From: a virus
Reading direction: 5' to 3' (one strand)
DNA: 20,225 nt
Virus record (IMG/VR): IMGVR_UViG_3300009159_000424
Location: 1 to 20,225 of that record
In this document: positions 2,584 to 13,092 of the stretch, in pieces
Layout: the number at the start of each line of letters is the position of its first letter
How positions within the stretch are numbered: position 1 is the first letter of the stretch
Program-made: the position numbers and the translations under genes
The notes under the pieces: generated by a model
Database searches by the model: none
Told to the model about the DNA's origin: nothing
The model's input: only the letters and a program-made list of their open reading frames with translations

Positions 2584-2604
2584 CATACTATTTATTAATG
2601 TATG
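2584..2604 (+). promoter_or_regulatory. Hairpin over the start codon of the first homing endonuclease
   Basis: CATAC (2584-2588) pairs with GTATG (2600-2604), which contains the ATG at 2602. ATT/AAT pairs continue inside, and CTATTTATTA (2588-2597) lies across the tip. Transcripts entering from upstream would hide the start codon. The same motif and design recur before the other two homing endonucleases (6473-6497 and 12288-12311). Confidence 0.5.
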
Positions 2605-3228
2605 GCAAATATAAATAAAAACAAACAGGTACATTTTTTGTATAAAAGTACAAATACGTTAAATGGAAACTACTATATTGGAATTCATTCTACAAACAAA
2701 ATAGACGATTCTTACATAGGAAGCGGAACGAGATTTAGAAAAGAGGTTGGAAAGTATGGTAAGCAGAATTTTAAGAGGGAGATTTTAGATTTTTTTAATT
2801 CAAGAGAAGATGCTTTAGCTGCTGAGTATAGGGTAGTTTCTGAAGTGATTTTAGATGTAAATTGTTTAAATTTATGTCAAGGGGGAAGAGTAGGAGGGCT
2901 TAACGAGGAAGCTCGTAGGTTAAGTAAAGAAAAAAGAGATTGGCTTAGAAAACACGATAAAGAGTGGAATAAGAAAGTAAGCACAAATGTAAGTACAGGA
3001 TTACGTATACATTACGAAAACAGGCCTGGAACCTTTACAGGAAGGACTCACAAATCAGAGAGTATTGAGAAAATCAAAGCAGCAGCTAAAAATAGAGGGA
3101 TAGGTAAAACAAACTCACAATACGGAACCTGCTGGATAACAAACGAGACAGAAAATAAAAAAATAAACAGAACAGACATAATCCCAGATGGATGGAGATT
3201 GGGAAGAGTAATAAGAAACAAGTATTAA
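2602..3228 (+). CDS. GIY-YIG homing endonuclease with NUMOD3 region
   Basis: 208 residues. The N-terminal GIY-YIG nuclease core is seen as FLY (12-14) and YYIG (24-27), followed by SYIGSGTRF, and a candidate catalytic Glu in LAAEYRVVSE (about 76). A NUMOD3-type DNA-binding segment (THKSESIEKIKAAAK) lies near 150. The C-terminal block QYGTCWI followed by IPDGWRLGR is typical of phage free-standing endonucleases. Such enzymes cut a specific site and spread their own gene by recombination. It is a paralogue of the product at 6505, sharing the same ends and layout. It sits just downstream of a tRNA-like element and has a start-codon hairpin. Confidence 0.9.
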   Translation: MANINKNKQVHFLYKSTNTLNGNYYIGIHSTNKIDDSYIGSGTRFRKEVGKYGKQNFKREILDFFNSREDALAAEYRVVSEVILDVNCLNLCQGGRVGGLNEEARRLSKEKRDWLRKHDKEWNKKVSTNVSTGLRIHYENRPGTFTGRTHKSESIEKIKAAAKNRGIGKTNSQYGTCWITNETENKKINRTDIIPDGWRLGRVIRNKY

Positions 3229-3305
3229 AAGGATAAATTAACAAAAAGAACGGTAGTTATTTAACCAATTTTATTTAGTGTAATATTTATAATTAAACTA
3301 ATAGA

Positions 3306-4991
3306 ATGAAAAAATTAATTTTGTTGCTAATTTTATTTATTGGATTTAATAGTAATTCTCAAACTGTTTGGAATGGAACTACTTGGTCACTAGGAGCTCC
3401 TAATGAGTTTATAGATGCCACACTTCAAGGAAATTATAATGGAGTTAGTTTTAAATGTTATAATCTTCTTATTGAAGCAGGAGCTATGTTAACAATACCT
3501 CCTTTTCTATATGTATCTGCAACTAATAATTTAACTGTTAATGGAACTTTAGGTTTATCAGACAGTGCTTCTTTTATACAGGTAAATGATTCAGGAACAG
3601 TTAGCGGTACAGGAACAATATTCTGTATTAGAAATACTACCCCAATGATTGCTAATGACTATACTTATTGGTCAAGTCCAATGGTAGATAGTACATTAGG
3701 TTCTAGTTTTAGTTCTTGGGTAACAGATAGAATATTTAAGTTTAATACAAGTAACTTCATTGATATTGAGACCACTTATAACGGTACTTATATCAATGCA
3801 TTTCCTGATGGTCAAGATGATAATGGTGATGCTTGGCAACCAATGGATCAAACAGACATAATGGTTCCAGGTATAGGATTTGCAGCCAAAGCATCAAGTG
3901 ATGTAACAACACCAACTATTTATGCTGCTACTTTTATAGGACAACCTAACAATGGAATAATTTCAGTTCCTTTAGTTATGAGTGGTAATCCATTAAGTAA
4001 TACAGATGATTTTAATCTTGTTGGAAATCCTTATTTAAGCTCTTGCTTTTCTGATAACCTTATCAACGCAAATCCAGATATTTCAGGAACTTTATATTTT
4101 TGGACACACACAACAGTAATTTCTCCAAGCAATTCAGGGATAAACATTTTAAATTTTACAAGCAATGATTACTCTAGATTAAATTTAACTGGAGGAACTA
4201 AGTCAGTAACTAACAGTGATAGACCAACTAGGTATATTGCTTCTTGTCAAGGCTATATGGTAAGAGCATTAAATCCTGGCACATTTACACATAACAATTC
4301 TTTAAGAAACGAGGGATATTCAAACGAAGATTTTCATAGAATAATAGTTCCAAAACAGTACTGGATTGCTCTAACTTATGAGGAGCAGTATTCAGAAGTA
4401 CTAATAGATTACAGAAGTAATACTTCGCTTGCAAATGATTACAGGTATGATGAAGAAAATGGAAATGGTAATACTTGGATTAGCCTTTATACTGTAAATG
4501 AAAATAATTATAAGATTGAATCTAGAGGTTCTTTCAATGATGATGATGCTATTCAATTAGGTTACAAAGCAAATGTTCCTGGTAATTTTACTTTATCATC
4601 AGATGGATTCACAAACTTTGAAGGATACAATTTAATATTATTTGATTCTCAATTTGGCACATTCCATAACTTGCAAACACCTTATACCTTTAATACAGAA
4701 ATAGGAACTTTTGATAATAGATTTACTTTAATGTATATAAACTCATTAAATAATCCAGAAAATGAATTACTACAAGTTAAACTATTCCCTAATCCATCAA
4801 GTGATATTGTAAATATTAATATTGACAATGTTAAAAATTTACAAGTATTAATATTTGATGTAACTGGAAAAATTGTTAAAACATTTTTAGAAACAAATAA
4901 GATCTATGTAGGCGATTTAGCTAATGGATTTTATTTAGTTAAATTAAAAAGTAACGAAAATACTAAAACATTTAAGTTTTACAAAAAATAA
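3306..4991 (+). CDS. Secreted protein with type IX secretion sorting domain
   Basis: 561 residues. Residues 1-19 (MKKLILLLILFIGFNSNSQ) are a Sec signal peptide. The last 75 or so residues form a type A T9SS C-terminal domain (Por secretion tail): VKLFPNPSSDIVNI, then VLIFDVTGKIV, and the final GFYLVKLKS...TFKFYKK strand. In Bacteroidota this domain sends cargo through the outer membrane for release or surface anchoring. The central part (VWNGTTWSLGAPN, DDFNLVGNPYLSS) resembles large flavobacterial cell-surface proteins and has no catalytic motif I can identify. It is followed 51 bases later by a lipoprotein gene, so the two may act together at the cell surface. A T9SS cargo in a phage is unusual and suggests acquisition from a host. 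ATATTTAT at 3283-3290 may be part of its promoter. Confidence 0.9.
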   Translation: MKKLILLLILFIGFNSNSQTVWNGTTWSLGAPNEFIDATLQGNYNGVSFKCYNLLIEAGAMLTIPPFLYVSATNNLTVNGTLGLSDSASFIQVNDSGTVSGTGTIFCIRNTTPMIANDYTYWSSPMVDSTLGSSFSSWVTDRIFKFNTSNFIDIETTYNGTYINAFPDGQDDNGDAWQPMDQTDIMVPGIGFAAKASSDVTTPTIYAATFIGQPNNGIISVPLVMSGNPLSNTDDFNLVGNPYLSSCFSDNLINANPDISGTLYFWTHTTVISPSNSGINILNFTSNDYSRLNLTGGTKSVTNSDRPTRYIASCQGYMVRALNPGTFTHNNSLRNEGYSNEDFHRIIVPKQYWIALTYEEQYSEVLIDYRSNTSLANDYRYDEENGNGNTWISLYTVNENNYKIESRGSFNDDDAIQLGYKANVPGNFTLSSDGFTNFEGYNLILFDSQFGTFHNLQTPYTFNTEIGTFDNRFTLMYINSLNNPENELLQVKLFPNPSSDIVNINIDNVKNLQVLIFDVTGKIVKTFLETNKIYVGDLANGFYLVKLKSNENTKTFKFYKK

Positions 4992-5042
4992 ATCTTCCAG
5001 ATCTAACTTGACCTACAAGCTAACAATTTAAAAATAAATAAA

Positions 5043-5909
5043 ATGAAAAAAACAATTTTTTTTTTACTAGCTATCATTAGTTTAGTAAGCTGTTCAAATG
5101 AAACAGAAAACAACTCTACTAAAGCAGGGAGTAATTTAGCTACAGTATCTACTGTAAACAGTTATAATTTTTCAATTAACAGTAGCGTATACACACCGTT
5201 AGTTAACAAAACAGTATTTCAATCAGGAATACAATTAAATACAGATGCAACTTCTACTGCAATTACTTTACCTTTCCCATTTACTATGTACGGGGAAGCA
5301 ATGACAACTGTATACTTATCCAATAATGGCTTCATTGGCTTTGGAAGTGCACCAAATAGAACAACAATTTATAATGCAATTTCTTCAAGTGAAACATTAG
5401 CAAAGTACCTAATTTCATTCAGCAATCAAATTACAGCTTGGAATGGCGAAGGTTCACAACCAGAAGTAAGTTATGGTCAAAATGTTTTAGGTGATATGGT
5501 TTTTCAATTCCAAGATGTATCTATTCAAACAGCACCAGGAGTTAGAATGACTTTTCAAATAATATTAAAAGCTAATGGTTCAACAATACAAATTGTGTTT
5601 GGACCAAACTGTACAGGACAAGATCAAATATCAAATACATCAGTTAGATCTTTTGAGGTTGGATTAAGAGGTTTGCAAGTTGCTCCAAGTTGGAATCCAA
5701 CTAGTATTTTTAAACAAACAGTAACTGGAGGATACCACAACCGTGTATTAGTTTCAGGAAATTGGAATATACTTAGTAATGTAAAAGTGGGTACGTTAGC
5801 TAGTTCAGCTATGTCACCAAGAACAGGTATTAACATGCCACCAACAGTTATGCCTAATATAACTGTAATGCCAAGTAATGGAAGAACTTATCAATGGACA
5901 GCAAATTAA
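5043..5909 (+). CDS. Surface lipoprotein, beta-sandwich-like
   Basis: 288 residues with a lipoprotein signal, MKKTIFFLLAIISLVSC (lipobox Cys 17), then SNETEN, a Ser/Asn/Glu-rich tether of the kind seen in surface-exposed lipoproteins. The mature part contains LPFPFTMYG and VYLSNNGFIGFGS. This resembles a module common in secreted Bacteroidota proteins, in which a folded sheet shows 'FPFxxYG...SNNGFIxFG'. No enzyme motif is seen. It follows the T9SS cargo gene and may share its transcript. Possible roles are host-surface modification, receptor masking or adhesion (inference). The C-terminus is rich in Pro and Met (INMPPTVMPNITVMPSN). Confidence 0.85.
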   Translation: MKKTIFFLLAIISLVSCSNETENNSTKAGSNLATVSTVNSYNFSINSSVYTPLVNKTVFQSGIQLNTDATSTAITLPFPFTMYGEAMTTVYLSNNGFIGFGSAPNRTTIYNAISSSETLAKYLISFSNQITAWNGEGSQPEVSYGQNVLGDMVFQFQDVSIQTAPGVRMTFQIILKANGSTIQIVFGPNCTGQDQISNTSVRSFEVGLRGLQVAPSWNPTSIFKQTVTGGYHNRVLVSGNWNILSNVKVGTLASSAMSPRTGINMPPTVMPNITVMPSNGRTYQWTAN

Positions 5910-5940
5910 TAAAATCTTATAAAAATAAATAAGATAACTG

Positions 5941-5971
5941 TTGCATAATAAAATAAAAATTCGTATATTTA
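5941..5971 (+). promoter_or_regulatory. Promoter P1, TTG-N20-TATATTTA
   Basis: TTG at 5941-5943, 20 bases, then TATATTTA at 5964-5971, preceded by TTCG. This matches the Bacteroidota housekeeping layout (TTG near -33, TAnnTTTG near -7). It lies 71 bases upstream of P2; both serve the small gene at 6062. Confidence 0.8.
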
Positions 5972-6011
5972 TAATATATAAAAAGTAACATAAAAATAAA
6001 TCAACTTATAG

Positions 6012-6042
6012 TTGGTTCGGAAAGGAAAAGTTCATATATTTA
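6012..6042 (+). promoter_or_regulatory. Promoter P2, TTG-N20-TATATTTA
   Basis: TTG at 6012-6014 and TATATTTA at 6035-6042 with the same 20-base spacing; the extension is TTCA instead of TTCG. The 46-residue gene begins 19 bases after the box, so the leader is short. Confidence 0.8.
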
Positions 6043-6061
6043 TATATAGAAAGCAATTAAA

Positions 6062-6202
6062 ATGAAAGCACAACAAAACATACATCAACTTAATATAGTA
6101 GCGGAAAGAGCCATTAGTCAATGGTCGGATTCGTTATGTGGAGATATTGTCTTTGGCTTTACGTATAATAACGAACCGAAAACAACCAAAACCGGGATAT
6201 GA
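6062..6202 (+). CDS. Small protein, 46 residues, unknown function
   Basis: Starts MKAQQNIHQLNIVAERAI and ends KTTKTGI. No signal peptide or membrane segment; one cysteine (SLCGDIVFGF). I do not recognise it. Support for a real gene comes from its surroundings: two tandem promoters directly upstream and a strong intrinsic terminator 34 bases downstream make it a separate one-gene transcription unit, which suggests high early expression. Confidence 0.65.
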   Translation: MKAQQNIHQLNIVAERAISQWSDSLCGDIVFGFTYNNEPKTTKTGI

Positions 6203-6235
6203 TATAATTAACTTATACATATAAATTCTAATAAG

Positions 6236-6271
6236 AACCCGGATCAAATAAAAAAAGATTCGGGTTTTTTT
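6236..6271 (+). terminator. Strong intrinsic terminator
   Basis: AACCCGGATC (6236-6245) and GATTCGGGTT (6257-6266) form a ten-pair stem with one G-T pair, followed by TTTTT. It separates the 46-residue gene from the tRNA-Ser unit, whose promoter starts 12 bases later. Confidence 0.9.
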
Positions 6272-6282
6272 ATTAAAAAAAG

Positions 6283-6313
6283 TTGCTAAAAAGAATAAAA
6301 GTTCATATATTTA
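6283..6313 (+). promoter_or_regulatory. Promoter P3 for the tRNA array
   Basis: TTG at 6283-6285 and TATATTTA at 6306-6313, spacing 20, with TTCA before the box. It lies about 50 bases upstream of tRNA-Ser and is the only such promoter found before the 6365-7797 tRNA region. Confidence 0.8.
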
Positions 6314-6364
6314 GGTATAGAAAGAAAGAATAAGAGTTCATTGACATATTGGATAAAATTAAAT

Positions 6365-6452
6365 GGAGAGGTGGCAGAGTTGGTCGATTGCGCTAGTCTT
6401 GAAAACTAGAGATCCCTTAAAAGGTCCATGGGTTCGAATCCCATCCTCTCTT
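6365..6452 (+). tRNA. tRNA-Ser (anticodon TGA)
   Basis: Type II tRNA. The acceptor is GGAGAGG/CCTCTCT, with a G1-T72 wobble. The anticodon stem is CTAGT/ACTAG around loop CTTGAAA (anticodon TGA), followed by a long variable arm. The T arm is ATGGG-TTCGAAT-CCCAT. CCA is not encoded. A copy of the acceptor start, GGAGAG, recurs just after the gene at 6455-6460. An endonuclease gene follows. Confidence 0.93.
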
Positions 6453-6472
6453 CTGGAGAGCTGTTTTTGTAT

Positions 6473-6497
6473 TTCCTTGCTATTTATTAGAAAGGAA
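6473..6497 (+). promoter_or_regulatory. Hairpin hiding the ribosome site of the second homing endonuclease
   Basis: TTCCTT (6473-6478) pairs with AAGGAA (6492-6497). CTA/TAG pairs continue inside and the loop is TTTAT. The 3' arm contains the Shine-Dalgarno-like AAGGAA, 8-13 bases before the ATG at 6505. The tip carries CTATTTATTA (6480-6489), as in the other two homing endonuclease leaders. Confidence 0.55.
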
Positions 6498-6504
6498 GTA
6501 CATC

Positions 6505-7170
6505 ATGGCAAAGAAAGAATACGGTACAAGAAAAAAGTATCATTATATTTACAAAACAACTAATACGTTAAGTGGTAGGTATTATATAGGAATGCATTCG
6601 ACAGATAATCTTGAGGATGGTTATTTAGGATCTGGAACATACTTAAAAAGATCTATAAATAAACATGGAAAAGAAAATCATTTAATTGAGATTCTAGAAT
6701 TTTTAAATTCAAGAAGGGAATTAGCAGCAAGAGAAAAAAAAATAGTATCTCTTCAAGAAATTGCTAAAAAACAATGCATGAATCTAAAAGTTGGAGGAGA
6801 AGGAGGCTTCACAGAAGAAAATAAAATAAAGGGAAGAGTAGCAGCAAATATAGCAAGGGCACTACTCCTACAGACAGATCCTGAATTTAAAGAAAAATAC
6901 TGCAAAGCAATTAGGGAAGGTCAGAAAAGGGCAAAAGAAAGAGGAGTAAAATTTAATAACATATCACAATGCTATTCCTGGAAAGGCAAGAAACATAAAC
7001 CTGAAACTCTTGAAAAAATGAGAAATACTAGAAAAGAAAAAGATTTAGGAAAAGGAGCTGATAATTCTCAATATGGGACTTGTTGGATTACAGACGAAAC
7101 AGAAAGTAGGAAAATGGACAAAGGAGATCTAATCCCAGAAGGATGGAGATTAGGAAGAAAAATAAAATAA
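6505..7170 (+). CDS. GIY-YIG homing endonuclease, paralogue of the gene at 2602
   Basis: 221 residues. The GIY-YIG core reads YIY (14-16) and YYIG (26-29), with GYLGSGTYL after it; a candidate catalytic Glu lies in AAREKKIVS. A NUMOD3-like segment (KHKPETLEKMRNTRKEK) follows, and the C-terminal block is QYGTCWITDE...IPEGWRLGR. It is clearly related to the product at 2602 from end to end. The gene interrupts the tRNA array, lying between tRNA-Ser and tRNA-Glu, and is expected to be selfish. The better start is 6505: an overlapping frame opening at 6363 lies inside tRNA-Ser and is not a gene. Confidence 0.92.
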   Translation: MAKKEYGTRKKYHYIYKTTNTLSGRYYIGMHSTDNLEDGYLGSGTYLKRSINKHGKENHLIEILEFLNSRRELAAREKKIVSLQEIAKKQCMNLKVGGEGGFTEENKIKGRVAANIARALLLQTDPEFKEKYCKAIREGQKRAKERGVKFNNISQCYSWKGKKHKPETLEKMRNTRKEKDLGKGADNSQYGTCWITDETESRKMDKGDLIPEGWRLGRKIK

Positions 7171-7218
7171 GGGTGTGTGGGAACCCAAGAATATGTGATG
7201 AGCATATACCCATAATCT

Positions 7219-7289
7219 GGCCCGTTCGTCTAAAGGCAGGACATTTGGTTTTCGACCAAAGAAAGACGGATCGTTACCGTCACGGGCTA
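7219..7289 (+). tRNA. tRNA-Glu (anticodon TTC)
   Basis: Acceptor GGCCCGT/ACGGGCT (G1-T72 wobble), D arm GTCTAAAGGCAGGAC, anticodon stem TTTGG/CCAAA with loop TTTTCGA (TTC), T stem GACGG/CCGTC. The T loop is ATCGTTA, so position 54 is A rather than T, which is unusual. CCA is not encoded. Confidence 0.88.
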
Positions 7290-7295
7290 CAATAA

Positions 7296-7367
7296 GGGGC
7301 TATAGTATAACGGCTATTACAATGGTTTTGCAAATCATAAATTGGAGTTCGATTCTCCATAGCTCCA
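7296..7367 (+). tRNA. tRNA-Ala (anticodon TGC)
   Basis: Acceptor GGGGCTA/TAGCTCC, anticodon stem ATGGT/ATCAT with loop TTTGCAA (TGC), T arm TGGAG-TTCGATT-CTCCA, discriminator A. It follows tRNA-Glu after six bases. Confidence 0.93.
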
Positions 7368-7372
7368 CAAAA

Positions 7373-7436
7373 TCGACTATAAGAGGATTGACCAATGAGG
7401 CTAATTGGTAAGTAGTTGACAGCCTGGAAAGACAGG
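7373..7436 (+). other. Structured spacer in the tRNA array
   Basis: TCGACTA (7373-7379) pairs with TAGTTGA (7413-7419) and encloses CCAAT/ATTGG (7392-7396/7404-7408); CCTG/CAGG (7423-7426/7433-7436) follows. There is no T arm and no anticodon arm, so it is not a tRNA as it stands. It may be a decayed tRNA or a processing element. Confidence 0.4.
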
Positions 7437-7442
7437 TAATTT

Positions 7443-7514
7443 GGTCTATTTGTGTAATGGTAGCAGTACTGGCTTGTCACGTCAGAGGCGAGAGTTCGAT
7501 TCTCTCATAGACCG
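7443..7514 (+). tRNA. tRNA-Asp (anticodon GTC)
   Basis: Acceptor GGTCTAT/ATAGACC, anticodon stem CTGGC/GTCAG with loop TTGTCAC (GTC), T arm GAGAG-TTCGATT-CTCTC, discriminator G as expected for Asp. Confidence 0.94.
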
Positions 7515-7518
7515 CAAA

Positions 7519-7561
7519 CCTTGGGAGTAATTAACCTAAGGCTGAGAGGTTCGAAACTCTC
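7519..7561 (+). other. tRNA-like fragment (T-arm-like hairpin)
   Basis: CCTTGGG/CCTAAGG (7519-7525/7535-7541) forms one hairpin and GAGAG/CTCTC (7544-7548/7557-7561) a second, whose eight-base loop GTTCGAAA resembles a T loop. No matching acceptor strand is found. Probably the remains of a tRNA. Confidence 0.4.
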
Positions 7562-7565
7562 GGAA

Positions 7566-7643
7566 TGATTATGGTGTAAGGGTGCACACCACCTCTGAAT
7601 CTAAAGGAGGTAGGGGTTTAAGGTTCGACTCCTTATTAATCAG
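7566..7643 (+). tRNA. Divergent tRNA-like gene, possible Arg (TCT)
   Basis: TGATTAT pairs with TTAATCA except at position 7:66. The T arm TAAGG-TTCGACT-CCTTA is perfect, and GTGT/GCAC can form a D stem. The anticodon stem ACCTCT/GGAGGT leaves a nine-base loop GAATCTAAA with TCT at its centre. Read as a seven-base loop, the stem ends in a G-A mismatch and position 33 is A instead of the nearly universal T. Possibly tRNA-Arg, possibly non-functional. Confidence 0.5.
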
Positions 7644-7652
7644 CTAATAAAC

Positions 7653-7725
7653 TGCGTTAAAGTGTAAAGGTTGCATCCTAGTCTCATAAGCTAGGGGGGT
7701 GGTTCGAGTCCACGTTACGCTACCA
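7653..7725 (+). tRNA. tRNA with CAT anticodon, probably Met
   Basis: Anticodon stem CTAGT/GCTAG with loop CTCATAA (CAT); T loop TTCGAGT with GTGG/CCAC; the 3' end encodes ACCA, the only encoded CCA in the array. The acceptor (TGCGTTA/TTACGCT) has mismatches at 1:72 and 6:67. A 1:72 mismatch recalls initiator tRNAs, but the anticodon stem lacks their three G-C pairs, so elongator Met is more likely. Confidence 0.75.
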
Positions 7726-7797
7726 GGCCTTGTAGCTCAAAGGAGGAGCAGTTCGCTCATAACGAAAAGGTTGGGATATCATAATTCCCCAAGGCCA
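7726..7797 (+). tRNA. tRNA with CAT anticodon, probably Ile (lysidine type)
   Basis: Acceptor GGCCTTG/CAAGGCC is perfect, D stem GCTC/GAGC, anticodon loop CTCATAA (CAT), discriminator A. The GGCC...GGCCA ends resemble bacterial tRNA-Ile whose CAT is changed to read AUA. The T loop is irregular (ATCATAA). It starts on the base right after the CCA of the preceding tRNA, so one cut would define both ends. Confidence 0.75.
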
Positions 7798-7843
7798 CTA
7801 AATTTTATCCATTATGAGGTCAATTCCTTCATCTCCAATGTAG

Positions 7844-7860
7844 ATTAGCTATTAGCTAAT
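7844..7860 (+). other. Seven-pair hairpin just before a start codon
   Basis: ATTAGCT (7844-7850), loop ATT, AGCTAAT (7854-7860), followed by TT and the ATG at 7863. It may mark the 3' end of the tRNA transcript or restrict translation of the next gene. There is only a three-base T run, so it is weak as a terminator. Confidence 0.45.
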
Positions 7861-7862
7861 TT

Positions 7863-8096
7863 ATGACTCAGAAATTGAGAATTTGGAGAGTAGTCCCTAC
7901 CAGTAAGACTGGTGTTCAGGCTCCCACGTTTTTTGTTGAAACAACAGAGAACGGTAGAGAAGAAGCAGTAGCATCTGCAAACCGCCAAGCAAGACAAAGG
8001 TCAGGTTTGGGTAAGTTTAACAATTGGTATTTCGAATTAACTAAAATGAATGTCAGAGTTGACAGACATGGAAAGTATATTCGTCATCACCAATAA
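7863..8096 (+). CDS. Small basic protein, unknown function
   Basis: 77 residues with many Arg and Lys and a C-terminal RVDRHGKYIRHHQ. No signal peptide. Residues 33-48 (REEAVASANRQARQRS) look helical. The charge would suit binding to nucleic acid, but no domain is recognised. The start follows a stable hairpin with no Shine-Dalgarno sequence, which is normal for Bacteroidota hosts. It is the last gene before promoter P4. Confidence 0.75.
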   Translation: MTQKLRIWRVVPTSKTGVQAPTFFVETTENGREEAVASANRQARQRSGLGKFNNWYFELTKMNVRVDRHGKYIRHHQ

Positions 8097-8107
8097 GAAA
8101 AATATTC

Positions 8108-8139
8108 GGAGAAAGATTTGGATATCTGGATCTTTCTTC
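8108..8139 (+). terminator. Terminator-like hairpin interleaved with promoter P4
   Basis: GGAGAAAGAT (8108-8117) and ATCTTTCTTC (8130-8139) form ten pairs. The loop starts with the TTG of promoter P4. The T-rich right arm runs straight into TTCG. Confidence 0.6.
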
Positions 8140-8148
8140 GTATATTAA
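8118..8148 (+). promoter_or_regulatory. Promoter P4, TTG-N20-TATATTAA
   Basis: TTG at 8118-8120 and TATATTAA at 8141-8148, with TTCG before the box. It drives the gene block from 8176. It overlaps the preceding terminator-like hairpin. Confidence 0.78.
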
Positions 8149-8175
8149 AGTATAGAAATAAAATTAATAAAAGTT

Positions 8176-8415
8176 ATGGCAAGTTATTCAACAGACGAAG
8201 TACAGTTAGCATCTGAGTTAACTAATTATAATGCAACAAAAGAAGCAATCGTAGATGGATTAGTTAGAGAAGGGTTTCTAACCGAAGAACAGGGCACCAC
8301 AGTTAAAAACCAATATGCAGTAGCACTAGTTAAAAACAATTGGTTTGGTACTGCAATAGCAAAATTAATCAACAGAAAAGATACAACAATAATTAAATTA
8401 GTAAAAATCGTATAG
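8176..8415 (+). CDS. Small protein, unknown function
   Basis: 79 residues, MASYSTDEVQLASELTN. Mixed charge and probably helical, with a short hydrophobic C-terminus (TIIKLVKIV). No known domain. First gene after promoter P4, with start context AAAAGTTATG. Its stop is followed by TT and the next ATG (TAGTTATG), so it is likely cotranscribed with the coiled-coil gene. Confidence 0.78.
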   Translation: MASYSTDEVQLASELTNYNATKEAIVDGLVREGFLTEEQGTTVKNQYAVALVKNNWFGTAIAKLINRKDTTIIKLVKIV

Positions 8416-8417
8416 TT

Positions 8418-9329
8418 ATGAAGAATTCGTTATCAGCAAAAGGGTTATCAATGTCTCAAGCACAATCAATCTCTAATCTTTGCAATCAAAGAGCAAAAGA
8501 GATTTCTACTAAATTAGATAACATCAACAACGTAGAGAAAACTTTAGTAATAGGTACTGAAACCTATATTGAAACTCAAGGAAATCCTATTCCAGAAAAC
8601 GTAGTACAGTTACTACAAGCCAAAGCAAGATTATCTGCCACTCAAGCATTCTTGATGGAAAACATCAAAGCTAAGGATGAATTAATTAAAGATATTCAAA
8701 CTGAGAAATTCAACTATGAGGTAGAAGCTCCAATCCGTCCTACAACCATTTCAGAAAACCTTCCTTTAGAGGTAGATGGAGATTTTGGTTTAGATCAAAT
8801 GACTGCAGCCGAATATAATGAGTATTTAGAAGCAGAGGCTTATGCTTCACATATTGGTCAGTTCATTCATAAAAGAGGAACTCTAGACCGTTTAAGAGCA
8901 GAACTTCCTACCATTAAAACTTTAGAGTTTATGGATATTGAAGCAGGAAAAAGAACTCCTCTTAAAGTAACTATTCACCACACACCTGAGCAATTGCTTG
9001 CAATTCATGAAGAATTAGCAGGACTTCATAGAGGGTATGAGCAAAAAGTGAATTACTTCAAATCAAAAGCAAAGAATGCTGTTACTTCTGAGAATGCTAG
9101 AATTCAGAAAGAGAGAGGTGAAATTCAAGCAAGAGTTAATCAAGTAAACTTAGAATTAGCAAATGAGTATAAGTTGGCTTATGATAAGTGGTTAGCAGAT
9201 CAACGTAAGGCTCAACACGAGTTTGAAGAAAAACGTCAAGGTAAAATTCAAGATGCTGTTAACTTAAAAATTAATGTAGCAGAAAGATTCCAGGATGTAG
9301 TAGACGAATTCTTGAATCAATTAAAATAG
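8418..9329 (+). CDS. Predicted coiled-coil protein, unknown function
   Basis: 303 residues, soluble. Residues 10-105 and about 200-300 are long amphipathic helices rich in Gln, Lys, Glu and Ala (for example RIQKERGEIQARVNQ and RKAQHEFEEKRQGK). A central segment around 105-135 is proline-rich and acidic (EAPIRPTTISENLPLEVDGD). No catalytic motif. The size and helical plan would suit a scaffold or an assembly partner, but this is not shown. It is in the P4 operon, two bases after the preceding gene. Confidence 0.85.
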   Translation: MKNSLSAKGLSMSQAQSISNLCNQRAKEISTKLDNINNVEKTLVIGTETYIETQGNPIPENVVQLLQAKARLSATQAFLMENIKAKDELIKDIQTEKFNYEVEAPIRPTTISENLPLEVDGDFGLDQMTAAEYNEYLEAEAYASHIGQFIHKRGTLDRLRAELPTIKTLEFMDIEAGKRTPLKVTIHHTPEQLLAIHEELAGLHRGYEQKVNYFKSKAKNAVTSENARIQKERGEIQARVNQVNLELANEYKLAYDKWLADQRKAQHEFEEKRQGKIQDAVNLKINVAERFQDVVDEFLNQLK

Positions 9330-9330
9330 T

Positions 9331-9600
9331 ATGGGTCAAAAAGTTGATTGGGTATTTTGGTTTACAATAGAAAGAAGAGAAGGATGGTTTAAAAAGTTTT
9401 GGAAAACTAGAGGATCTAATGCTATGGAATTTCAAATCTATAATTATAGAATATCAATTGGTATGCCTTGGCACCCTGAAGTTATAAGAAAAGCTGATGT
9501 AAACTATCCAATGGAAGGAATTAATCATATGCTAAAGACCAATGAGCAAAATAGAATTGGAATAAAAAAATGGGGAAGATTTAGATTTATTAAAAATTAA
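9331..9600 (+). CDS. Hypothetical protein, aromatic-rich
   Basis: 89 residues with many Trp and Phe (VDWVFWFTIERREGWFKKFWKTRG). There is no true membrane segment because charged residues interrupt it. Starts one base after the previous stop. Not recognised. Confidence 0.75.
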   Translation: MGQKVDWVFWFTIERREGWFKKFWKTRGSNAMEFQIYNYRISIGMPWHPEVIRKADVNYPMEGINHMLKTNEQNRIGIKKWGRFRFIKN

Positions 9601-9615
9601 TATAAAATAATAGTT

Positions 9616-9903
9616 ATGAACGAAGTAGTAGGAATGCCAGAACCAGAATTATGTCAGGAAGCATGTGTAACCAAAACATATGACGACAGATCAGAAAAAT
9701 ACAGACCATCTAGAATGGAATGTCTAAGAGATTATGAAATAGGAATTAGATTTCTTTCAAGAGGATGTGTTATCAATGTAGGATGTAAACAAGTTGCATT
9801 TTCTACAATCAAAGAAGCAATGAACGCTTTTACTGATTACATAAATGATCCTTACGGAACAAGGCAGATTTGGGAGAAAAGATTCCAAGAAGAAGAAAAA
9901 TAG
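9616..9903 (+). CDS. Hypothetical protein with N-terminal cysteines
   Basis: 95 residues. Cysteines occur at LCQEACVTK near the start, in MECLRDYE, and in GCVINVGCKQ, so metal binding is possible though no standard motif fits. The second half (FSTIKEAMNAFTDYINDP) looks like a small alpha/beta fold. Start context AATAGTTATG. Part of the P4 operon. Not recognised. Confidence 0.75.
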   Translation: MNEVVGMPEPELCQEACVTKTYDDRSEKYRPSRMECLRDYEIGIRFLSRGCVINVGCKQVAFSTIKEAMNAFTDYINDPYGTRQIWEKRFQEEEK

Positions 9904-9905
9904 CT

Positions 9906-10070
9906 ATGAATCTCAGAGAACAGTATGCTGTGTACGAAAAAGTACCTGCACATGGTAGCGAAGAAAATGGGATAATATTAGGTCCATTTAATTCAGAAGA
10001 AGATGCTCAACAAGCTAGAAAAAAGTATGGGTATAGTAGCAGTAACTACTTTGTTGATAAAATAAAATAA
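9906..10070 (+). CDS. Small protein, 54 residues, unknown function
   Basis: The start at 9906 (MNLREQYAVYEKV), two bases after the preceding stop, is preferred over 9870, which would overlap the previous gene by 34 bases. The sequence GIILGPFNSEEDAQQARKKYG is a pattern seen in short beta-alpha modules such as SPOR-like or 'GPF...A..A' proteins. The resemblance is weak. Last gene before the second structured RNA. Confidence 0.7.
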   Translation: MNLREQYAVYEKVPAHGSEENGIILGPFNSEEDAQQARKKYGYSSSNYFVDKIK

Positions 10071-10074
10071 TTTG

Positions 10075-10394
10075 GTGCTAAGGAGGTAAGCACAAGCCGA
10101 TCCTCCAAAGCTTTATGCTGGGATAGTGGAGTCTTAAATTATAGATACATATAAAAATGACTTTTAATCATTCTATGAGACACTTAAATGGCCCCGTGCC
10201 ATTTAGACAGACACGCTTCCTTACAAACTTTCAAAACTGAGATAGAACTCAACAGCTAGACATGTTACTCCTACTGGGAGACTAAAAGTGGCTAGCAACT
10301 TTGAGACTTAGTTTTTGTCCTTGCCTTTGTGGTAAGGAAGGTCCTTGACCTTGATTTTAGCTTAGATTTAGTCTATATGCTTTACATCCCAGCA
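10075..10394 (+). ncRNA. Second structured RNA, about 320 bases, unknown class
   Basis: There is no ORF, but many helices. At the 5' end GTGCT/AGCAC (10075-10079/10089-10093) has GGAGG in its loop (10082-10086), which can pair with CCTCC (10102-10106), an H-type pseudoknot. Then TGCTGGGAT (10116-10124) pairs perfectly with ATCCCAGCA (10386-10394), enclosing 260 bases. Inside are a long hairpin 10131-10181 (GTCTT/GAGAC, ATAG/CTAT, AATGA/TCATT), TAAATGG/CCATTTA (10185-10191/10199-10205), CAAAACTGAG/CTTAGTTTTTG (10232-10241/10307-10317, one bulge) enclosing GCTAG/CTAGC and CTCC/GGAG, CCTTGCC/GGTAAGG (10319-10325/10331-10337) and AAGGTC/GACCTT (10338-10343/10347-10352). I do not recognise it as tmRNA, RNase P or a riboswitch. 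Confidence 0.7.
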
Positions 10395-10419
10395 ACATAT
10401 TTATTATAAAACATATATT

Positions 10420-10593
10420 ATGAAAAAAGAAGATTTAAAAAACCTTATTAAAGAAGCAATAACAGACCAGTTTCTTAAGAACTCAGATTTACAGCAATTA
10501 AATAAGATTGTATTTAAACTATATGATAGTGGAAAAATAGAGAAAAGTGAATATGCGTCAATCCAAACAATTTTAAAGAAATTAGATAAGTAA
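10420..10593 (+). CDS. Small helical protein, 57 residues
   Basis: Begins MKKEDLKNLIKEAITDQF and ends TILKKLDK; charged and almost wholly helical. No family recognised. It starts 25 bases after the closing helix of the structured RNA, and ATATTTATTA at 10397-10406 may serve as its promoter. It is followed by a terminator. Confidence 0.68.
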   Translation: MKKEDLKNLIKEAITDQFLKNSDLQQLNKIVFKLYDSGKIEKSEYASIQTILKKLDK

Positions 10594-10622
10594 ACTTAGA
10601 ATATTTTAAAAATAATTAACAA

Positions 10623-10648
10623 AAGGCTTGCTTCGGCAGGCTTTTTTT
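10623..10648 (+). terminator. Intrinsic terminator with UUCG loop, fused to promoter P5
   Basis: AAGGCTTGC (10623-10631), loop TTCG, GCAGGCTTT (10636-10644), then further T residues to 10648. The TTG of the next promoter (10628-10630) is inside the left arm and the T run leads into TTCG. Confidence 0.88.
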
Positions 10649-10658
10649 CGTATATTTA
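10628..10658 (+). promoter_or_regulatory. Promoter P5, TTG-N20-TATATTTA
   Basis: TTG at 10628-10630, TATATTTA at 10651-10658, TTCG before the box. Drives 10683 and the metallophosphoesterase/kinase genes. Confidence 0.82.
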
Positions 10659-10682
10659 GTTATAATTAATAAGATAAAGGTT

Positions 10683-10967
10683 ATGATAAAATCAATAATT
10701 ACCAAGGGGCATTTAATAGCCACATTAGACAATATAAGTAAAGTCAGAAAGTCTGGAACAATTCTTGAGATAACTAGAGCAGGAGCTTTTTTAGAAGGTA
10801 TTCTTTATTCTTTAGGTAAGCTATCACCAAAGGGAGGCTTTCAATATAAAAATATAGAATATATAGAAGTTGGATGGTTTGGTAAAGAGAAAGTAAAAAC
10901 AAGAGAACAAACATATATAGAATATATGATTGAAAGAATAGAAGAATTAATTGAAGAAATAGAGTAG
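10683..10967 (+). CDS. Hypothetical protein, C-terminal acidic helix
   Basis: 94 residues. The first half (LIATLDNISKVRKSGTILEITRAG) seems to be beta-rich; the end (YIEYMIERIEELIEEIE) is an acidic amphipathic helix. No signal peptide or known motif. First gene of the P5 operon, start context AAAGGTTATG, and its stop lies two bases before the phosphoesterase start (TAGTTATG). Confidence 0.75.
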   Translation: MIKSIITKGHLIATLDNISKVRKSGTILEITRAGAFLEGILYSLGKLSPKGGFQYKNIEYIEVGWFGKEKVKTREQTYIEYMIERIEELIEEIE

Positions 10968-10969
10968 TT

Positions 10970-11620
10970 ATGAAACTAACATTAGGAAAAGGACAACAGT
11001 TGTTCTTTACATCAGACACACATTACGCTCACTCAAACATTTGTAGTGCAACTACAAACTGGTCAGTGAATGATGGATATGCTCGTAAGTTTGATTCATT
11101 GGAAGATATGAACCAAAGACTAGTTGATAACATTAACAACATGGTTGGTGAAGATGATATCTTAATTCACTTAGGTGATTGGTCATTCGGAGGATTTGAT
11201 AAAGTGCAAGAATTTAGAGATAGAATTGTTTGTAAAAACATTCACTTGGTACTTGGAAATCACGATCACCACATTGAAAGAAACAAAGAAGGAATTCAAT
11301 CATTATTCTCTTCAGTACAGAACTACTTGAGATTAGAAGTAAGAAGACCAATTAATAAAGCAACAACTGAGAAGTTTATTTTCGTGTGTATGCACTATCC
11401 AATTGCGTCATGGCATGATATGAACCAAGGAGTAATTCACTTGCATGGCCACGTGCATTTACCGGCAAACCTACGAATAGCAGAGGGTAAAGCAATGGAT
11501 GTTGGAGTAGATGGAAATGAACTGGAGCCAATTTCAATGGACGAGATATTATCGATAATGAAAGATCGTCCAATTAAAAAATTAGCATTACCAAAGGATC
11601 ATCACGAAAAAAGAATTTAA
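10970..11620 (+). CDS. Calcineurin-like metallophosphoesterase
   Basis: 216 residues with all the family's metal-binding motifs in order: SDTH (Asp16, His18), HLGDW (Asp70), GNHD (96-99), MHYP (His142) and GHVH (160-163). These bind two metal ions and hydrolyse phosphate mono- or diesters. Phage members may act on nucleotides or on RNA ends, such as 2',3'-cyclic phosphates, but the sequence does not fix the substrate. In the same operon as a 5' kinase and upstream of an RNA ligase, so a part in RNA repair is reasonable (inference). Cytoplasmic; no signal peptide. Confidence 0.92.
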   Translation: MKLTLGKGQQLFFTSDTHYAHSNICSATTNWSVNDGYARKFDSLEDMNQRLVDNINNMVGEDDILIHLGDWSFGGFDKVQEFRDRIVCKNIHLVLGNHDHHIERNKEGIQSLFSSVQNYLRLEVRRPINKATTEKFIFVCMHYPIASWHDMNQGVIHLHGHVHLPANLRIAEGKAMDVGVDGNELEPISMDEILSIMKDRPIKKLALPKDHHEKRI

Positions 11621-11621
11621 T

Positions 11622-11885
11622 ATGTTAAACACAAGAGTAGAAGACAACCACTTTAATGAAGATGGTTCATTAATATCGTCACGGATTATAATTGAGGTTC
11701 CATTATCTCACGAAATGTTACAAGATTGTTATTCGTATACAGCAATGGATGCACCATCTGAAATTAAAAGAATGTTGATGGAATTTCTTGGTGATACAAT
11801 TGATGAAATCATTTTAGGTAAAAGACCTGATAATGTTGATGAACAATGGTTAAGAAGAAAACTAATAGAAGTAAAAGTAATATGA
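11622..11885 (+). CDS. Hypothetical protein between phosphoesterase and kinase
   Basis: 87 residues, acidic. The middle (EVPLSHEMLQDCYSYTA) and a helical C-terminus (EIKRMLMEFLGDTIDEIIL) show no known motif. It starts one base after the phosphoesterase stop, and its stop overlaps the kinase start (ATGA at 11882-11885), so translation is likely coupled and the product may work with them. Confidence 0.75.
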   Translation: MLNTRVEDNHFNEDGSLISSRIIIEVPLSHEMLQDCYSYTAMDAPSEIKRMLMEFLGDTIDEIILGKRPDNVDEQWLRRKLIEVKVI

Positions 11886-12283
11886 AGGAACTTTATCTAT
11901 TAAGAGGATTACCTGGATCAGGAAAATCAACATTAGCAAAATCAATAGGTGGAATGCATGTAGAAGCAGATATGTTTTTTATGGAACCATCCTTAGAATT
12001 TAGGACAGTACATACTTATAAGTTTGATCCTTCTAAATTAAAAGAAGCACATGCTTGGTGTCAAAAGACAGTTGAAGTATGTATGCTTAGGGATTTAAAA
12101 GTTGTAGTATCAAACACATTCACTCAGGAATGGGAAATGCAACCATACTATGATCTAGCAGAAAAGTACGGATACAGAGTTTATTCTTTAATTGTAGAAA
12201 ACATCCACAACGGAAAAAGCATTCATAACGTTCCAGAAGAAAGCATTAATAAAATGAGGGACAGGTTTATCGTTCGTTTATAG
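11882..12283 (+). CDS. P-loop polynucleotide-kinase-like protein (AAA_33 type)
   Basis: 133 residues from the ATG at 11882, which overlaps the previous stop; a longer reading from 11846 would overlap more and adds only a basic stretch. The Walker A motif is GLPGSGKST (9-17). VEADMFF (Asp30) supplies the Asp expected near the substrate, then VVVSNTFTQ and the HNVPEE segment common to this kinase family. It is the kinase domain only, with no 3' phosphatase domain of the T4 Pnkp kind. A role in phosphorylating 5' ends of broken RNA fits its neighbours. Other phosphotransfer on small substrates is possible. Confidence 0.85.
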   Translation: MKELYLLRGLPGSGKSTLAKSIGGMHVEADMFFMEPSLEFRTVHTYKFDPSKLKEAHAWCQKTVEVCMLRDLKVVVSNTFTQEWEMQPYYDLAEKYGYRVYSLIVENIHNGKSIHNVPEESINKMRDRFIVRL

Positions 12284-12287
12284 ATTT

Positions 12288-12311
12288 TAGTGCTATTTAT
12301 ATATAGTACTA
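12288..12311 (+). promoter_or_regulatory. Hairpin upstream of the third homing endonuclease
   Basis: TAGTGCTAT (12288-12296) and ATAGTACTA (12303-12311) form nine pairs including one G-T, with loop TTATAT. CTATTTATAT (12293-12302) covers the upper stem and loop. It ends seven bases before the ATG at 12319. Confidence 0.6.
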
Positions 12312-12318
12312 ACTATGA

Positions 12319-13092
12319 ATGTTGAAAACTATGGGAAAAGAACACAGAATCTGCGAATGCTGTAAGCAGCAGTATTATGGGCAAGGAAAATTATACTGCT
12401 CTATTGGATGTCGAAACAAGGCATCAAAAGGAAAACCTCAAAAGAAAAGAAGTGATGAAACAAAATCAAAAATAAGCAAAGCACATAAGGGTAAGACTAT
12501 TAGTGATGAAGTAAAACTAAGGACATCCAATACCCAAAAAAAATTATGGGAGAATGAAGAATACAGGGAGCAGCAAAGAAGTAGCAGAGTAGGTCGCATA
12601 CAAAGCGAAGAAACTAAAAAGAAAATCTCAGATGCTCAAAAAGGAGTCCCAAAACCTTCAACTACTCTTTATAATCTAACAAGACCTAAAGTATCAGGCT
12701 GGAATCATACAGAGGAAAGTAAAAAGAAAATAGGAGAAAAAGTATCAGGAAATAAGAACGGAATGTACGGGAAAGTTCCTATATATTCAAAATACTCCTT
12801 ATATGAAAAGGGTACTACTACGATAAAGATGCGATCTACTTGGGAAGTACTTTTTGCTCAATACTTAGACAGATTAGGATCTGACTGGGAGTATGAAAAA
12901 CACACCTTTAAACTAGGAGAAAAGCACACATACACTCCAGATTTTTACTGTAATGGCACCTTTTACGAAGTCAAAGGATACTTACATCCACATTCAAAAG
13001 TAAAGATGGAACAATTTATCGAGCAATACCCTGAACATACTCTAGTACTTGTTAATAAAGCCTACCTAAAAGAATTAGGATTACTAAAATAA
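12319..13092 (+). CDS. Homing endonuclease, zinc-finger, NUMOD3 and PD-(D/E)XK-like nuclease
   Basis: 257 residues if started at 12319; a start at 12331 (MGKEHR) is equally possible. Residues 12-31 have CxxC...CxxxC, a short zinc finger. Three or more NUMOD3-type repeats follow (SDETKSKISKAHKGK, SEETKKKISDAQKG, TEESKKKIGEKVSG). The C-terminal domain has MRSTWEVLFA (Glu176), then YTPDFY (Asp208) and FYEVKGY (Glu217, Lys219), the PD...ExK pattern of restriction-type nucleases. Unlike the other two it lacks a GIY-YIG core. It lies between the kinase gene and promoter P6, interrupting an otherwise continuous early region. Its leader hairpin resembles the others. Confidence 0.88.
   Translation: MLKTMGKEHRICECCKQQYYGQGKLYCSIGCRNKASKGKPQKKRSDETKSKISKAHKGKTISDEVKLRTSNTQKKLWENEEYREQQRSSRVGRIQSEETKKKISDAQKGVPKPSTTLYNLTRPKVSGWNHTEESKKKIGEKVSGNKNGMYGKVPIYSKYSLYEKGTTTIKMRSTWEVLFAQYLDRLGSDWEYEKHTFKLGEKHTYTPDFYCNGTFYEVKGYLHPHSKVKMEQFIEQYPEHTLVLVNKAYLKELGLLK

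Follow-up and report, generated by a model that had tools for sequence, protein, structure and literature searches.

For I-TevI and segB of phage T4, a late promoter placed within a hairpin has been described as the means of control (PMC2988022), and for I-TevI, I-TevII and I-TevIII the early or middle read-through RNA is folded and blocked, while an internal late promoter yields a translatable RNA (PMC2988022, PMC3014915). The free-standing homing endonuclease gene (HEG) mobE of Aeromonas phage Aeh1 likewise has a hairpin that sequesters its ribosome-binding site (PMC2988022), and the T4 lysozyme gene e, a late gene, is kept silent on early transcripts by a hairpin whose 5' strand contains late promoters (PMC3014915).

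The window analyzed here, a whole stretch of 20,225 nucleotides, is part of the genome of a T4-like phage akin to vB_FspM_immuto, a 160-kb Flavobacterium phage of the genus Immutovirus (about 83% identity across 11%), and carries three HEGs, HEG1 to HEG3, which are probably selfish DNA-cutting genes that each start with the phage's own predicted late promoter next to the start codon. T4 segB belongs to the same protein family as the SegB-like genes (about 40% identity), is likewise located among tRNA genes, and has a start-covering hairpin that holds a late promoter (PMC2988022); unlike segB, however, the Flavobacterium lineage has TATTTAT rather than a TATAAATA-type motif, and some relatives would be leaderless or have a 5' arm that pairs with codons. 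The other systems stand further apart: the three I-Tev enzymes are intron-encoded and studied by experiment, whereas the window HEGs are free-standing and their control is predicted; mobE belongs to the HNH family, whereas the window genes are of GIY-YIG and PD-(D/E)XK type; and gene e is a phage gene and no mobile element.

On computational evidence, we consider it very probable that CTATTTAT is a late promoter of the -10 type and that the surrounding fold blocks early translation of the endonuclease while the late RNA escapes. Each HEG would be part of an early transcription unit, and in the early read-through RNA the sequence ahead of the promoter would pair with the start region, so that the start codon or leader is masked and synthesis of the endonuclease is prevented. 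Late in infection, RNA polymerase would start about 5-6 nt past the motif, and since the resulting RNA would lack the 5' arm, the hairpin could not form and the endonuclease would be translated; in one class, which includes HEG1, the late RNA would begin at the ATG itself and thus be leaderless. The arrangement is that of segB and I-TevI with a different late promoter; in our analysis it proves widespread and re-tuned between phage lineages.

Endonuclease starts in the window

The window comes from an early region that holds small genes, a cluster of tRNAs and nine promoters of the early type, TTG-N18-TTC[GA]TATATTTA. This early form (TTG-N18-TTCGTATATTTA) differs from the late motif CTATTTAT, and a transcript from the copy upstream of tRNA-Ser would cross both that tRNA and the HEG2 hairpin (Table 1).

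Table 1. Features at and near the three endonuclease genes of the window
Feature	Position	Strand	Basis or remark
Weak hairpin across HEG1 start codon, 5-bp stem	2584..2604	+	z about -0.2
Predicted -10-type late promoter of HEG1, CTATTTAT	2588..2595	+	6 nt before ATG
HEG1, GIY-YIG homing endonuclease (SegE/SegB-like)	2602..3228	+	sequence homology; 3' of tRNA-like stretch
Early-type promoter -7 element (TTCATATATTTAGG) and upstream TTG	6302..6315	+	consensus only
tRNA-Ser (tga), directly 5' of HEG2	6365..6453	+	tRNA prediction
HEG2 upstream hairpin, stem TGTATTTCCTT/AAGGAAGTACA, CTATTTAT on loop side	6468..6502	+	folding
CTATTTAT, predicted late promoter of HEG2	6480..6487	+	motif match
HEG2, SegB-like GIY-YIG homing endonuclease	6505..7170	+	between tRNA-Ser and tRNA-Glu
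Early-type promoter (TTCGTATATTTAGT), operon ending in HEG3	10647..10660	+	consensus only
Hairpin spanning upstream kinase gene end and HEG3 start	12276..12320	+	folding
CTATTTAT, predicted late promoter of HEG3	12293..12300	+	motif match
HEG3, NUMOD3 repeats and T7 endonuclease I-like PD-(D/E)XK domain	12319..13092	+	domain matches

An earlier note on this DNA had reported a hairpin and CTATTTAT at the starts of all three genes, an observation that is largely real and that our analysis confirms in part. The motif is indeed common to the three starts, each copy lying on the + strand shortly 5' of one HEG; the two remaining copies (3916 and 15805) are both within genes. The total of five is not raised over the 3.1 expected on both strands, but the probability that any one start has a copy in the 25 nt or so before it is low (P about 0.002). 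The argument that the genes represent two unrelated nuclease types, which would exclude common descent, applies to HEG3, which sequence comparison finds unrelated to the others, but not to HEG1 and HEG2, which are homologous (41% identity, E 2e-54), SegB-like and tRNA-linked; common descent can therefore explain the motif for these two but not for HEG3. HEG2 also matches phrog_314 (E 6e-34), and for both SegB-like homing endonucleases DNA cleavage and homing are putative activities.

Of the three hairpins, those of HEG2 and HEG3 are strong. The former, placed by the earlier note at 6473-6497, proved longer (11 bp plus 3 bp, -15.2 kcal/mol, z -3.7), holds AAGGAA within its stem and persists in relatives with altered stems; in immuto, no endonuclease gene separates tRNA-Ser from tRNA-Glu. 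The latter had been drawn at 12288-12311, ending seven bases before the ATG; it is real but larger (-15.6 kcal/mol, z -3.8 to -5.0), an outer arm (12276-12283/12313-12320) bringing the ATG at 12319 into the 3' side of the stem and the kinase gene stop codon into the 5' side. Translation of HEG3 could start at this ATG or at 12334, the first ATG being absent from its relative L045, which shows a different pairing with z -4.0 only when coding sequence is included; a second relative, L044, folds weakly (z -0.8 to -1.5), and relatives carry ACTATTTATA and GATATTTATA in the same position behind the same kinase gene. The HEG1 hairpin, in contrast, folds no better than shuffled sequences, so that the proposed likeness to I-TevI, with a late promoter inside a hairpin, holds well for HEG2 and HEG3, whose motif lies in the loop, while for HEG1 the promoter is supported and the hairpin block is weak. 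A clear Shine-Dalgarno site is lacking in HEG1 and HEG3, where pairing involves the start codon itself, and tRNAs were the sole Rfam matches at the three genes.

The start-codon hairpin across the family

The same layout recurs well beyond the window, in dozens of distant phages. Among 49 SegB-like genes on viral contigs, mostly directly 3' of a tRNA gene and, on uncultured contigs, with starts taken from a simple ORF caller, 44 have a significant start-codon hairpin (z below -2), although these counts are not fully independent, since both phages and genes have common ancestry. The mean z is -5.4 as against -0.75 for other genes of the same loci (P 8e-17); the T4 segB hairpin, which has the same layout, reaches -5.5, and 19 non-HEG late promoters of immuto average 0. 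As MAFFT misaligned stems of unequal length, column covariation was replaced by arm swapping and by sense/antisense folding: the 5' and 3' arms of one gene pair at -17.8 kcal/mol, swapped arms at -11.1 (P < 5e-5). Predicted pairing of the start region falls from 0.72 in a long RNA to 0.25 in one that begins past the motif, 99% of the partners lying upstream of this point; in non-HEG late genes it falls from 0.51 to 0.35, with 59% dependent on upstream sequence, so part of the drop reflects simply less RNA.

The layout is often shared by unrelated endonucleases of these phages. The resident late motif precedes 9 of 11 HNH genes and 10 of 13 NUMOD3 matches, some of which are GIY-YIG genes themselves, and in each set five also have a significant hairpin, as against 86 with the motif and 20 with the hairpin in addition among 412 control genes (P 0.0002 and 0.0004).

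A first alternative accepts the late promoter and takes the inverted repeats for DNA operators through which the endonuclease represses its own gene, rather than for RNA hairpins. There is a precedent in I-TevI, whose late promoter overlaps an operator to which the enzyme binds (PMC2988022), and the motif is flanked by inverted repeats here as well. Yet sense folds are stronger than antisense folds in 40 of 43 cases (P 6e-10) and contain more G-U pairs (89 versus 50), a strand bias that favors a role in RNA over one in DNA; moreover, arm sequences vary among relatives with complementarity kept, and the stems extend into coding sequence and cover the ATG. We regard operators in place of RNA hairpins as unlikely, while operator use may occur alongside the RNA hairpin.

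The late motif and its distance to the start codon

Copies of CTATTTAT and GATATTTAT are found in immuto 10-40 nt 5' of the genes for portal, sheath, tail completion, tape measure, tail spike and further late products, a placement that makes CTATTTAT the phage's probable late promoter. Fifteen of its 20 copies are at most 60 nt upstream of a start, where shifted positions give 1.6 and never more than 6 in 2000 shifts, and by annotation the motif occurs in the run of 15/24 late genes but also, a point against the reading, of 6/32 early genes (P 0.002). In nine other phages the respective resident motif precedes 27/53 homologues of immuto late-module genes and 14/171 of early-module genes (odds ratio 11.6, P 9e-11). 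The late-promoter reading of the earlier note, which had named beforehand a lack of enrichment before late genes as fatal to it, is thereby upheld.

The lineage of the window uses CTATTTAT/GATATTTAT and departs from the gp55-dependent T4-type late consensus TATAAATA, while T4-type ATAAATA is present in other lineages of the set. A profile search found no gp55-like late sigma factor in immuto or in most TATTTAT phages; phrog_234 matched 3/6 ATAAATA and 3/4 ATATATA phages, with a weak match in a single TATTTAT phage, several of these records being fragments. The single T4 gp55 sequence retrieved homologues in ATAAATA phages only, whereas the profile reached some ATATATA phages. A literature search on late promoters of Flavobacterium phages returned nothing relevant.

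The distance from motif to ATG is bimodal, at 4-6 and 13-30 nt with few cases at 7-12, both in HEGs and in 395 non-HEG late genes, as if transcripts either began at the ATG or carried a leader; such spacing is expected if the start lies 5-6 nt past the motif and very short leaders are avoided. With CTATTTAT only 6 nt before its ATG, the late HEG1 mRNA would be leaderless, and the very short leader that the earlier note saw as a demand of its reading thus fits a real class. In 14 phage genomes and contigs (e.g. L215-L224 of G003), the motif sits only 3-7 nt ahead of the ATG in about 12-15% of the non-HEG genes that carry it, suggesting that leaderless late mRNAs form a class.

Closeness to start codons also invites the idea that TATTTAT is no promoter but a translation-initiation or RNA-protein element ahead of the late genes of AT-rich phages, the more so as Shine-Dalgarno pairing plays a small part in hosts of the Flavobacterium type. 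Against this idea, which we judge very unlikely, the dip at 7-12 nt between the two distance clusters is absent from most control 7-mers of the same composition, the known T4 late promoter occupies the same place in ATAAATA phages, and the motif class follows the genome and not the gene. In G001 and G008 (L188-L197, L161-L167) there is another upstream motif with a strong sense bias, ACGTATAA(T), which is probably their early or middle promoter.

Loop motifs and resident phages

Depending on lineage, the hairpin loops of SegB-like genes contain TATTTAT, ATATATA or ATAAATA. In 14 of 14 phages (13 contigs carrying a SegB-like gene, with immuto in place of the window) the loop holds the same motif class that shows sense-strand enrichment ahead of other genes (permutation P < 1e-5). 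For eight further contigs the class was predicted from the loops before the sequences were fetched, with endonuclease genes excluded from the motif counts, and all eight agreed, which brings the agreement to 22/22, eight of them predicted beforehand. The preceding base tends to agree too, with sense/antisense counts of 8/1 and 8/0 for CTATTTAT, 39/3 and 21/2 for GTATTTAT and 34/3 for ATATTTAT; agreement is weakest in G013 (7-mer 9/7, 8-mer 8/1) and G021 (22/10). On a tree of 51 SegB-like genes the loop class changes at least nine times, several times inside supported clades, indicating that the promoter was exchanged with the hairpin kept or that both were rebuilt together.

Since most SegB-like relatives follow tRNA genes, the hairpins might instead be signals for tRNA 3'-end processing or termination; HEG2 and most relatives do lie directly behind tRNAs, with a T-rich run. 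However, HEG3 stands behind a protein gene and has a hairpin nonetheless, no such hairpin was seen at the tRNA-Ser/tRNA-Glu junction of immuto, and the hairpins co-vary with the endonuclease start, many lying within its codons, and are centered on the late motif, so that we give this explanation very little credence. An AT-rich coincidence of a shared 8-mer and small hairpins, for which the composition of the window, the unremarkable CTATTTAT total and the HEG1 fold might speak, is the least credible of all, being refuted for the family as a whole by position-specific enrichment and hairpin statistics over 49 relatives and 22 phages, and survives for the first hairpin only.

The hairpin and loop-match statistics indicate that T4's I-TevI/segB device is widespread, with the promoter rewritten to fit the resident phage. 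We think it likely, with less assurance than for the mechanism itself, that free-standing HEGs carry a portable timing device in which the hairpin is kept while the loop promoter is repeatedly rewritten to the resident phage's late promoter, the leaderless form included, and that the loop of such a gene reveals the late promoter of an uncultured phage. A control device known from T4 textbooks would hence extend to phages that infect Bacteroidota or other hosts and have different late promoters, uncultured T4-like phages would yield their late promoter from sequence alone, and a class of leaderless late phage mRNAs is proposed. The findings further suggest that timing control is a general need of homing endonucleases, answered by homologous and by apparently independent solutions.

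Some other features of the window deserve mention. About 900 bases without a clear gene (1660-2570) separate a YcfL-like gene from HEG1; they include a segment with 74% identity to Cellulophaga phage phi14:2 (1830-1924) and, near 2395-2480 and 2483-2566, stretches of tRNA-like sequence left uncalled by ARAGORN and Rfam. At 3306-4991 the phage encodes a protein of 561 aa whose C-terminal sorting domain is of the Por secretion-system type; upstream of its gene, AATATTTATAATTA at 3283 looks like a variant of the late promoter. Finally, the intergenic stretch 10115-10394, which matched no Rfam family, is predicted to form a closed multi-branched RNA fold with the ends TGCTGGGAT/ATCCCAGCA (-92.5 kcal/mol, z -4.8 for 10077-10400), and is a possible candidate for a phage RNA of a new type.
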